From an uncultured Alphaproteobacteria bacterium (GTDB lineage: Bacteria > Pseudomonadota > Alphaproteobacteria > MPNO01 > UBA830), in contig CAJWSW010000008.1 of assembly GCA_913046035.1 (NCBI GenBank), positions 1 to 64,000 on the forward strand: a DNA stretch of 64,000 nucleotides, in the 5' to 3' direction. This document shows positions 39,083 to 42,861 of this stretch, in pieces (the first letter of the stretch is position 1; each line of letters starts with the position of its first letter). A program made the translations under genes and the position numbers. Below the pieces are notes generated by a model. The model did no database searches, had not been told where the DNA came from, and saw nothing but the letters and a program-made list of their open reading frames with translations.

Positions 39083-39553
39083 ATGCCAGGAAAACTCAAA
39101 ATAGACCCTGCCGATGATCGGCCGCCGGTAGCACCAGTGCTGCCCGAACCCGACAAACAGGCGGATCACCATCGCCAGGTGCGTGCAGCACGTCAGACTG
39201 AGGTGATGGAAGACTATGTCGAACTGATAGCTGATTTAATTGACTCTACCGGCGAGGCTCGTTCAGTGGACATCGCCGCGCGGCTTGGTGTTACAACCCC
39301 TACAGTCGCGCGCATGATTGGGCGGTTGAAAGACGCGGAATGGATTGAAGCAAGACCCTATCGCACCATATTCCTTACCGAGGAAGGTCGTAAGATTGCA
39401 GAGGCATCCCGTCGTCGGCACCAGATCGTTGTCGAATTTCTCACCTCGATTGGTGTTAGAGAGGAAATTGCACGTGCTGACGCCGAGGGGATTGAACACC
39501 ACGTTTCTGATGAGACACTTATTGCGTTTGAGAGTTATTTGAAATCGATCTGA
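39083..39553 (+). CDS. mntR: Manganese-responsive regulator MntR (DtxR family)
   Basis: A 156-residue DtxR-like regulator. The helix-turn-helix is [31 protein letters not shown] (about residues 55-88), followed by the dimerisation/metal region [25 protein letters not shown] and [13 protein letters not shown] with metal-binding His/Glu. It represses Mn import, for example of mntH, when Mn is sufficient. No MntH or SitABC transporter is in the window. The first 40 residues are polar, as in other alphaproteobacterial MntR. No clear ribosome-binding site precedes the ATG. Confidence 0.92.
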
Positions 39554-39678
39554 TTCCTAGCTTAGCGCCGAATCAAATCGGACTTATTTTCTAGAATAAG
39601 CGCCTTATTTAGAGGGCCCGGCTTTGTTCCCCACAATTCTCGATTCAAGGAGGTCCTGAAAACTGCGGTTCCCACAGG

Positions 39679-39702
39679 GTATACACACCACAATGTGGAT
39701 AC
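39679..39702. promoter_or_regulatory. Inverted pair of DnaA-box-like sites (upstream pair)
   Basis: GTATACACA (39679-39687) and TGTGGATAC (39694-39702) face each other across the 6-bp spacer CCACAA. Read on the opposite strand the second site is GTATCCACA. Each is one mismatch from the DnaA box consensus TTATNCACA (position 1 G for T). The arrangement repeats that of the perfect pair 101 bp downstream. Confidence 0.6.
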
Positions 39703-39779
39703 CTCATCATTTAGTCGTTTTTAATTGACGATGCCCTAGATATTGATGCACACTGCCGAGTTGCGACTGTAGATTTTAG

Positions 39780-39803
39780 TTATCCACAGATGGTTGTGGA
39801 TAA
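39780..39803. promoter_or_regulatory. Inverted pair of perfect DnaA boxes (downstream pair)
   Basis: TTATCCACA (39780-39788) and TGTGGATAA (39795-39803) are exact matches to the consensus DnaA box on opposite strands, with a 6-bp spacer (GATGGT). The centre of this pair is 101 bp downstream of the centre of the first pair, close to ten helical turns. In E. coli the nrdAB promoter carries DnaA boxes that affect its transcription, so a similar role is the simplest reading. Confidence 0.75.
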
Positions 39804-39951
39804 ATTGCGGCTTGCAGGGCGGGATTTGTCCAAGTTGGGCTGAAATCATATGGCAACAGTTACCTGCCACAAAGCGTAGAAATCACAGGGGGTGGTTCTG
39901 CGCGGTATCAATTCACTACCCCCAGACGAGTTCATTATAGGAGGGCGGGGC

Positions 39952-41835
39952 GTGCTCGACCTGGTACAAACAGAACATGATCTCTTTCAGTCAAAACGCG
40001 GTATTGCAGTGCGTATCGATCGGGATCGGGACGCAAACCTGACAGATTTTGGCAAGGCGGTTCTGTCCGATCGGTATTTAATGCCGGGCGAAGAATATCA
40101 GGATCTTTTTGCGCGCGTTTCTTGCCATTTTGCAGATGATTCAGATCACGCGCAGCGCATTTACGACTACATGTCAAACCTTTGGTTCATGCCGTCGACC
40201 CCAGTTTTATCAAATGGCGGAACTGATCGAGGCTTACCCATTTCTTGTTTTTTAAATGAAGCTAATGACAGCCTCAACGGTATCGTAGAGCTTTGGAATG
40301 AGAACGTTTGGCTTGCTTCGCTCGGCGGCGGTATCGGCTCATATTGGGGCAATTTGCGTTCAATTGGAGAAAAAGTGGGGGCTAATGGTAAAACCTCCGG
40401 TATCATTCCCTTCATTCGTGTAATGGACTCGTTGACACTCGCAATTTCGCAGGGTTCCCTCCGTCGAGGCTCAGCGGCGATTTACATTCGCATTGATCAT
40501 CCTGAAATAGAAGAATTCATCGAACTGAGACGTCCTACTGGAGGTGACCCAAATCGTAAGGCTTTAAATTTGCACCACGGGATTATCATAACCGACGAAT
40601 TTATGCGGGCAGTCGAAAACGATGAAGAATGGGGTCTTAAGAGTCCGAAGGATCAGACTGTAATTCGTAAAGTATCTGCTCGCGGTCTATGGATCCGCAT
40701 GCTTTCTACTCGCATTGAGACTGGCGAGCCTTATCTGCTTTATATAGATCACGTAAACAAAGCAATTCCGGAACATCACAAGTTGGCCGGACTCGAAGTT
40801 AAGATGTCGAACCTTTGCAGTGAAATTACATTGCCGACAGGTGTAGACAAGGATGGCGAAGAGCGCACGGCGGTTTGTTGTCTCTCTTCACTAAATCTAG
40901 AAACTTATATGGAATGGCATGATCATCCAACGTTTGTTGAAGATATCATGCGGTTCTTAGATAATGTCATTCAGGACTTTATCGAACGTGCGCCCGATAC
41001 TATGGCTCGCGCCCGTTATTCTGCGATGAGAGAACGTTCTGTCGGGCTTGGCGTTATGGGGTATCACTCATTTTTACAGAGCCAAGCGGTACCCATGGAA
41101 TCCGTAATGGCGAAGGTTTGGAATAAGCGAATATTTAAACAAATCAAAGAACAAGCCGACGCTGCATCAGTGATTTTGGCGCAAGAGCGAGGCGCATGTC
41201 CTGATGCTGCCGAATACGGCATGGTAGAGCGTTTTTCTAACAAGATGGCGATCGCACCAACGGCATCGATTTCAATTATTTGTGGTGGTTCGTCTCCGGG
41301 TATTGAGCCGAATGCTGCAAACTCCTACACACACAAAACCCTTTCTGGTTCGTTTAATGTACGTAATAAATTTTTGAAAGCTCTGCTCGCGGAAAAAGGC
41401 AAGGATGATGACGATACATGGTCGTCTATCACTGTAAACGAGGGGTCAGTTCAGCACCTTGATTTCCTTTCCGAGGACGAAAAAGACGTCTTCAAAACAG
41501 CCTTCGAACTAGATCAGAGGTGGCTTATCGACCATGCCGGTGACCGCGCAGAATTCATATGCCAATCCCAGTCATTAAATGTTTTCCTACCAGCTGATGT
41601 TCAGAAAAAAACGTTACATGATGTGCATTGGAGGGCATGGGAAAAGGGTGTAAAATCGCTCTATTATTGCCGTTCTAAATCTGTTGCTCGTGCCGAAAGC
41701 CATGCAAGCGTTTCGGTAACTGGTGCTAAAGCTAATACCGCGAATGCGGGTGTAGATGGGAACTTTGAACCGTTGCCCATAGCGGCATCTGGCGAAAATG
41801 AAAACGATTATGAAGAATGCTTGAGTTGCCAGTAG
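39952..41835 (+). CDS. nrdA: Class I ribonucleoside-diphosphate reductase alpha subunit
   Basis: NrdA reduces ribonucleotides to deoxyribonucleotides with NrdB. The catalytic barrel is clear: NLCSEITLPTG with the redox cysteine, MPSTPVLSNGGTDRGLPISCFLN, LASLGGGIGSYWG, RRGSAAIYI and MAIAPTASISIICGGSSPGIEPN. The C-terminal dithiol is CLSCQ. There is no N-terminal ATP-cone; the protein enters the barrel within about 30 residues. I favour the GTG at 39952, which has AGGAGG seven bases upstream; the in-frame GTG at 39892 would add 20 residues. nrdB follows 66 bp after the stop. Confidence 0.94.
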   Translation: MLDLVQTEHDLFQSKRGIAVRIDRDRDANLTDFGKAVLSDRYLMPGEEYQDLFARVSCHFADDSDHAQRIYDYMSNLWFMPSTPVLSNGGTDRGLPISCFLNEANDSLNGIVELWNENVWLASLGGGIGSYWGNLRSIGEKVGANGKTSGIIPFIRVMDSLTLAISQGSLRRGSAAIYIRIDHPEIEEFIELRRPTGGDPNRKALNLHHGIIITDEFMRAVENDEEWGLKSPKDQTVIRKVSARGLWIRMLSTRIETGEPYLLYIDHVNKAIPEHHKLAGLEVKMSNLCSEITLPTGVDKDGEERTAVCCLSSLNLETYMEWHDHPTFVEDIMRFLDNVIQDFIERAPDTMARARYSAMRERSVGLGVMGYHSFLQSQAVPMESVMAKVWNKRIFKQIKEQADAASVILAQERGACPDAAEYGMVERFSNKMAIAPTASISIICGGSSPGIEPNAANSYTHKTLSGSFNVRNKFLKALLAEKGKDDDDTWSSITVNEGSVQHLDFLSEDEKDVFKTAFELDQRWLIDHAGDRAEFICQSQSLNVFLPADVQKKTLHDVHWRAWEKGVKSLYYCRSKSVARAESHASVSVTGAKANTANAGVDGNFEPLPIAASGENENDYEECLSCQ

Positions 41836-41901
41836 CAACCAGCTCTCAAAAATCAACTTTTAACATCTCATTTATTGAGGATTACGGAGACGAATTCTGC
41901 C

Positions 41902-42861
41902 ATGTCGCTACTAGAAGCTAATTCAGTTTATAAACCTTTTACTTATCCCTGGGCTTACGACGCCTGGCTGACACAACAACGCGTTCACTGGTTGCCTGAA
42001 GAGGTGCCCTTAGCGGATGACGTTAAAGATTGGCACAACAAACTCTCTGCTGAAGAGCGAAATCTTCTCACCCAGATATTCCGCTTCTTCACTCAGTCCG
42101 ATATTGAGGTCAATAATTGCTACATGAAACGTTACTCACGCGTGTTTCAGCCGACCGAGGTGCAGATGATGTTATCGGCATTCTCTAATATAGAAACCGT
42201 TCATATCGCGGCTTATTCCCATTTATTAGACACCATCGGGATGCCGGAAACGGAATACCAAGCCTTTCTGCACTATAAGGAAATGAAAGATAAATTCGAT
42301 TATCTGCAGCAGTTTGATGTAGATACAAAGGAAAATATTGCTCGCACTTTAGCGGTTTTTGGAGGCTTTACAGAAGGTCTTCAGCTATTCGCCAGTTTCG
42401 CGATTCTGATGAACTTCCCGCGCTTCAACAAAATGAAGGGAATGGGTCAAATTGTATCTTGGTCTGTTCGGGACGAGAGCTTGCACACGGAATCAATTAT
42501 TAAGCTGTTCCGCACTTTCGTGTCAGAAAACCCTGAAATCTGGACCGAAGATTTTCAGCGCTCGCTTTATGTACTCTGCTCTGAAATGGTTGAGCACGAA
42601 GACGCTTTTATTGATCTTGCTTTTGAACTTGGAGGTGTGGAAGGGCTCAACGGGTCGGAAGTTAAAGAATATATTCGCTATATTGCAGATCGCCGCCTCA
42701 CGCAGCTTGGCTTGCAGCCGATCTACAGACTTGAAAAGAACCCGCTACCCTGGATGGACGAAATGCTTAATGGTATGGAGCATACGAATTTCTTTGAAAA
42801 TAGAGCGACCGAATATTCAAAGGCCGCTACCCAAGGTTCTTGGGAAGATGTCTGGGCATAG
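41902..42861 (+). CDS. nrdB: Class I ribonucleoside-diphosphate reductase beta subunit
   Basis: NrdB carries the di-iron centre and tyrosyl radical of class I ribonucleotide reductase. From the ATG at 41902 the protein is 319 residues, with iron ligands D67, E98, H101, E158, E192 and H195 and the radical tyrosine at Y105 (IETVHIAAYSH). The spacing of D, E, H and Tyr is the same as in E. coli NrdB, offset by 17. There is no ATP-cone domain here either. ACGGAGACG upstream supports this start over the TTG at 41875. A strong hairpin follows at 42901. Confidence 0.95.
   Translation: MSLLEANSVYKPFTYPWAYDAWLTQQRVHWLPEEVPLADDVKDWHNKLSAEERNLLTQIFRFFTQSDIEVNNCYMKRYSRVFQPTEVQMMLSAFSNIETVHIAAYSHLLDTIGMPETEYQAFLHYKEMKDKFDYLQQFDVDTKENIARTLAVFGGFTEGLQLFASFAILMNFPRFNKMKGMGQIVSWSVRDESLHTESIIKLFRTFVSENPEIWTEDFQRSLYVLCSEMVEHEDAFIDLAFELGGVEGLNGSEVKEYIRYIADRRLTQLGLQPIYRLEKNPLPWMDEMLNGMEHTNFFENRATEYSKAATQGSWEDVWA

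Follow-up and report, generated by a model that had tools for sequence, protein, structure and literature searches.

Convergent pairs of candidate DnaA boxes and tandem NrdR boxes at the nrdAB promoter of an uncultured alphaproteobacterium

The stretch of DNA analyzed here (the window, 64,000 nucleotides of an uncultured alphaproteobacterium) codes on its forward strand for the α subunit of a class I ribonucleotide reductase (RNR), NrdA (39952-41835; NF006577/TIGR02506), followed by the β subunit, NrdB (41875-42861). Going by the relatives and by a Shine-Dalgarno sequence (AGGAGG, 39939-39944), the likely start of nrdA is the GTG at 39952 rather than the ORF start at 39892. An ATP-cone is seen in neither the NrdA nor the NrdB of the window; hence, the only ATP-cone protein found is the regulator NrdR, whose gene is present in the genome between glyA-like and ribD-like frames (PF03477, 70 bits; MKCPFC... 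and MKCPFCGSDDTQVKDSRP). Directly upstream of nrdAB is a gene for an mntR-type manganese regulator (39083-39553), possibly relevant to the metal used by this RNR. Certain relatives (L089-L092) code for a second RNR large subunit, ~32-35% identical and in a frame of 770-780 aa, which has no match in the genome under study.

Upstream of nrdA are two inverted pairs of DnaA-box-like 9-mers. The downstream pair, D (39780-39803), reads TTATCCACA-GATGGT-TGTGGATAA, i.e., two perfect boxes TTATCCACA, one on the plus strand (39780-39788) and one on the minus strand (39795-39803), converging across a 6-bp spacer. The upstream pair, U (39679-39702), reads GTATACACA-CCACAA-TGTGGATAC and has the same 9-6-9 geometry, its start being 101 bp from that of D. 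A preliminary description of this DNA had recognized the two perfect inverted boxes of D and the matching geometry of U, and both hold on direct reading. It had also placed each U box one mismatch from the consensus, which is true of the right box (GTATCCACA, 39694-39702, minus strand), the left one (GTATACACA, 39679-39687, plus strand; ATATCCACA in relatives) having two, and it had put the pairs about ten helical turns apart; the 101 bp stand, while exact ten-turn phasing gives way to 9.6 turns if a turn is taken as 10.5 bp. Two bp upstream of U, in direct orientation, is GTTCCCACA (39668-39676, plus strand), a suggestive candidate for a weak DnaA box: the site, TTC[CT]CACAG, has 8 of 9 columns invariant in five genomes and matches the consensus at only 6 of 9 positions here. 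Together with the left box of U it gives GTTCCCACA-GG-GTATACACA, a weak candidate for a direct double box of the E. coli type, in which the spacer is 2-3 bp. A search of all 2.78 Mb of the genome finds no exact 9-6-9 pair other than D, and allowing up to three mismatches in the 18 positions yields D, U and one weak site only. This uniqueness, and the recurrence of both pairs in relatives, bear out the earlier argument against chance. Readings of D and U as an MntR site or an IscR-type-2 site were set aside for misfit of spacing or motif.

Between U and D lies the predicted nrdAB promoter, with a probable -35 element TTGACG (39725-39730) and, at the expected -10 position, TGCACA (39747-39752), both on the plus strand and both invariant at 6 of 6 columns in five genomes. 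The -10 assignment is a presumptive one; being unlike TATAAT, this hexamer caused a sigma-70 consensus scan to miss the conserved promoter. The same region contains two plus-strand NrdR box cores: box 1, CATCATTTAG (39705-39714; one mismatch to CWANATNTWG, 8 of 10 columns invariant), and box 2, CTAGATATTG (39736-39745; no mismatch), which sits between the -35 and -10 elements, 31 bp from box 1. For NrdR, box centers must be separated by whole helical turns, ~31 or 41 bp (PMC12051234), and the tandem cores thus have the spacing of the NrdR regulon. The motif itself is validated by a histogram of NrdR-core spacings over 81 nrdA leaders, which peaks at 31 bp (21 leaders). The preliminary description had overlooked these NrdR boxes between U and D.

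Related-locus and family searches retrieved five relatives with nrdA (L003-L006 and G005, the latter being L007). Conservation of both pairs in close relatives, on which the earlier proposal had been made to hinge, is seen in four of these five family members: L003-L006, which span three genera, keep both pairs with their N6 spacers and the 101-bp distance. The window and these four align without gaps over a 153-bp block (39660-39812). In this five-genome, three-genus alignment, the D boxes have 17 of 18 invariant columns (9/9 left, 8/9 right) as against 0/6 in the spacer and 0/8 in the stretch after D; at U the counts are 7/9 for the left box, 1/6 for the spacer and 7/9 for the right box. A freely varying spacer with a conserved 9-mer on either side is the pattern expected from two box-binding monomers. 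Outer bases vary among the relatives: U is of the ATATCCACA type, reading ATATCCACAACATGTTGTGGATAT in L005, and the right D box of L005 and L006 is GTATCCACA. Throughout the genomes of these four relatives, 9-6-9 sites with 0-1 mismatch are confined to the nrdA pairs. In the nrdA leader of G005, of the same family, neither pair was found; it has scattered near-boxes instead, and ATATCCACA and TGATCCACA are present in the upstream region.

The same alignment speaks to the idea that D works not as DNA but as a hairpin of the 5' leader RNA, since the palindrome could fold into a 9-bp stem in the transcript. The stem bases are invariant except for an outer A replaced by C in L005/L006, which disrupts a pair with no compensatory change; the five genomes offer no covariation, and the palindrome recurs at U, upstream of the promoter. 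We accordingly dropped the hairpin and regard it as extremely unlikely, keeping D as a pair of candidate DnaA boxes. A separate RNA element is found between D and nrdA (39863-39945), where a covarying hairpin and a candidate H-type pseudoknot, GGGGGTGG with CTACCCCC, use the pairings 39874-39881/39896-39903 and 39888-39895/39916-39923. In this element 94.9% of the cells are paired (43-56% in slid controls) and three pairs are changed on both sides. A covariance model scores convincingly only at the nrdA of five family genomes, and an Rfam search of the window returned no match; the leader RNA is possibly regulatory.

The genome codes for a canonical DnaA (PF08299, 112.7 bits) with the GRDHTTVMHA signature intact. 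Genome-wide there is no excess of TTATCCACA (19 sites versus 21 for the reversed control), and the perfect boxes elsewhere in this genome fall mostly within open frames, with no second strong paired promoter found. A weaker intergenic pair, TTATCCACG-N5-TGTGGATAA, lies at the end of a contig, downstream of a folB-like frame (L152:314-336, contig C76), and its spacing resembles that of the E. coli DARS cores. The usual alphaproteobacterial oriC is the region upstream of hemE. Here, that region (L147:5518-5781, contig C32) contains four one-mismatch DnaA boxes in ~260 bp and is the probable oriC of the genome.

Across the class, a perfect DnaA box is present in 23 of the 81 nrdA leaders, versus 3 among 1241 control windows. 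Shuffles predict 0.31 leaders and are the fairer yardstick, since coding sequence makes up most of the control windows and the leaders are mutually related. Near-perfect boxes likewise number 1.37 per 400 bp of nrdA leader as against 0.05 in the controls. These boxes come in several geometries: 9-2-9 convergent pairs just before the nrdA start codon (L057, L062, L063, L069) and, in another group (L009, L125, L127-L130), TTTTCCACA direct repeats 11 bp apart upstream of nrdA, a period that leaves 2 bp between direct boxes, as in E. coli (PMC11317965). In the latter group, which belongs to another family of the same order, TTATGCACA abuts NrdR box 1. Such lineage-specific variation (9-2-9, 9-6-9, 11-bp direct repeats) fits the binding of DnaA monomers and not of one fixed dimeric regulator, and the enrichment supports DnaA as the predicted binder. 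The putative control of nrdAB by DnaA, as first proposed in the preliminary description, is thus well supported by conservation, by class-wide enrichment in the leaders and by an intact DnaA gene.

We also searched 385 alphaproteobacterial genomes for exact TTATCCACA-N0..14-TGTGGATAA pairs. These occur at 25 places, with spacers of 2 (two places), 3 (seven), 4 (four), 5 (three), 6 (six), 10 (one) and 14 bp (two) and no others within the N0..14 range, against an expectation of ~0.016 per spacer under a uniform base model. The neighbors of the exact pairs include hemE (L172, L179, L183), nrdA (the window, L181, L185, L192), dnaE (L177, L178/L194, L187), repA (L173), a uracil-DNA glycosylase gene (L190) and polA (L193). 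The six N6 sites lie at the nrdA of the window, at three dnaE genes, at one polA and at one place without an assigned neighbor (G148). In every one of these TATCCACA-N6-TGTGGATA sites the 9-mer is also completed by an outer T and A; loosening the N6 search at the outer base returned the same six from the 385 genomes and no additional ones, and hence all N6 sites carry complete 9-mers. Their strict 6-bp spacing and strong symmetry, together with the location of five of the six at nrdA, dnaE or polA, could be taken to mark the operators of an unknown dimeric repressor of DNA-precursor and polymerase genes, the match to DnaA boxes being incidental. This appears unlikely to us: both half-sites correspond to the 9-bp DnaA consensus down to the outer base, the spacer of D is free, the perfect boxes of other nrdA leaders come in other spacings and orientations, and the convergent pairs beside hemE have spacers of 3, 4 and 10 bp.

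The N6 sites at dnaE and polA have NrdR-like centers (CAGCATGTTG, CAGCATTTTG, CAACATATTG). The three sites upstream of dnaE (L195:1896-1919, L194:2990-3013 and L196:3398-3421) come from Alphaproteobacteria of different families, and each is accompanied, exactly 31 bp closer to the gene, by a further NrdR core (0-1 mismatch); the rough chance value for such a partner in three out of three is 2e-8. The NrdR cores and their 31-bp partners suggest a composite DnaA/NrdR operator. The exact pair upstream of the polA-like gene, which codes for a 5'-3' exonuclease domain, also contains a perfect NrdR core (L193:1505-1528). In four relatives, U itself has an NrdR-like center without mismatch, CAACATGTTG or CAAGATGTTG, a feature that the preliminary description had missed; this center is gone from U in the window and is not in D. 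The cores at dnaE and in the relatives' U, with the 31-bp partners of the former, might suggest that the 9-6-9 palindromes are nothing more than extended NrdR boxes. This is very improbable, for the center of D departs from the NrdR core at 3-4 positions, U is spaced 19 and 50 bp from the two NrdR boxes instead of the required 31 or 41 bp (PMC12051234), and the NrdR boxes of 28 nrdA leaders are generally devoid of TTAT/ATAA DnaA flanks (~4/9 matches in the overlap frame). This want of a general overlap in nrdA leaders limits compositeness to particular sites. As a reading of the sequence, it is firm for the dnaE sites and suggestive for U, and it finds no support at D. More tentatively, and with rather less than even confidence, we envisage an alphaproteobacterial class of composite operators, convergent boxes with a 6-bp spacer and an NrdR-box center, at which DnaA and NrdR would compete for one 24-bp site at nrdAB, dnaE and polA; in the nrdAB of this family, U would be such a composite, decayed in the window, and D a copy for DnaA alone, downstream of the promoter.

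In E. coli, DnaA regulates nrdAB, with low DnaA-ATP or DnaA-ADP activating and high DnaA-ATP repressing (PMC8203912). The present locus resembles that system in having DnaA and NrdR boxes around the promoter, the nucleotide form of DnaA tuning nrdAB there (PMC8203912, PMC11317965, PMC12176259). The layouts differ: the E. coli boxes, TTATCCACA-N3-TTATGCACT, form a direct pair located to one side, and those of the present locus form two convergent 9-6-9 pairs, one on either side of the promoter. An action of DnaA on ribonucleotide reductase genes has also been proposed for Caulobacter crescentus, another alphaproteobacterium (Hottes 2005, as cited in PMC8203912). A closer geometric parallel, overlooked in the preliminary description, is provided by the E. 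coli DARS cores, DARS1 being TAATACACA-N3-TTATCCACA-N5-AGTGGATAA and DARS2 TTCTTCACA-N3-CTATCCACA-N5-GGTGAATAA, whose opposed boxes I and II drive head-to-head dimers of ADP-DnaA (PMC8682772, PMC5742627). The U of the relatives, GTTCTCACA-N2-ATATCCACA-N6-TGTGGATAT, resembles them in topology, with convergent boxes 5-6 bp apart and a candidate third box in direct orientation 2-3 bp away. U, and perhaps D, might accordingly be DARS-like elements at which ADP-DnaA dimerizes head-to-head and sheds its ADP, any effect on nrdAB being secondary. We give this little credence, as each spacing is off by 1 bp (2 for 3 and 6 for 5), the weak third box matches at only 5-6/9 positions and is lacking altogether in D, and the sites come as two copies on a promoter beside NrdR boxes. 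U and D appear to resemble opposed-pair DnaA sites, and we do not claim them as DARS members. In the oriC of Thermotoga maritima, the inverted boxes 2-3 support a DnaA dimer in vitro, with an optimum spacing of 4 bp and an additional complex at 5-6 bp, compared with 6 bp here (PMC10316083). We found no earlier description of combined NrdR and DnaA boxes in this layout in the searchable open literature; while the control of nrdAB by DnaA and NrdR is a known idea, the arrangement and the composite dnaE 9-6-9 sites appear to be new within that literature.

Taken as sequence evidence, the two inverted pairs are likely to be DnaA operators of the nrdAB promoter, with a tandem NrdR operator between them. 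Several observations pull the other way: the DnaA of E. coli favors direct boxes separated by 2-3 bp, the double-box rule (PMC11317965); the Thermotoga optimum for inverted boxes is 4 bp (PMC10316083); U is degraded in the window genome and the G005 nrdA is without the pairs; the promoter and start site are predictions; and TTATCCACA shows no genome-wide excess. If the pairs are DnaA operators, the NrdR boxes between them imply that nrdAB would be read by two sensors—DnaA, which would report the state of replication through its ATP or ADP form, and NrdR, which would report dATP/ATP. Taking a position near 39760 as the predicted start of transcription, U would span about -82 to -59, immediately before the promoter, and D, at about +20 to +43, would belong to the earliest transcribed DNA. 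Each convergent pair may be occupied by a DnaA dimer, as at the E. coli DARS cores; DnaA on D could repress by blocking or stalling RNA polymerase, while DnaA on U could activate, or else stabilize the D complex via looping. At high dATP, NrdR on boxes 1 and 2 would exclude the polymerase. Replication state and nucleotide supply thus probably meet at one nrdAB switch.

Most of what is understood about how dNTP supply is matched to the initiation of replication comes from E. coli, in which DnaA plays a complex part at nrdAB; the candidate DnaA and NrdR inputs described here present a simple, conserved and mutable layout. The recurrence of convergent DnaA pairs at nrdA, dnaE, polA and hemE suggests that DnaA may read geometry, and that in Alphaproteobacteria it may use the opposed-pair arrangement, as in DARS, for gene regulation.
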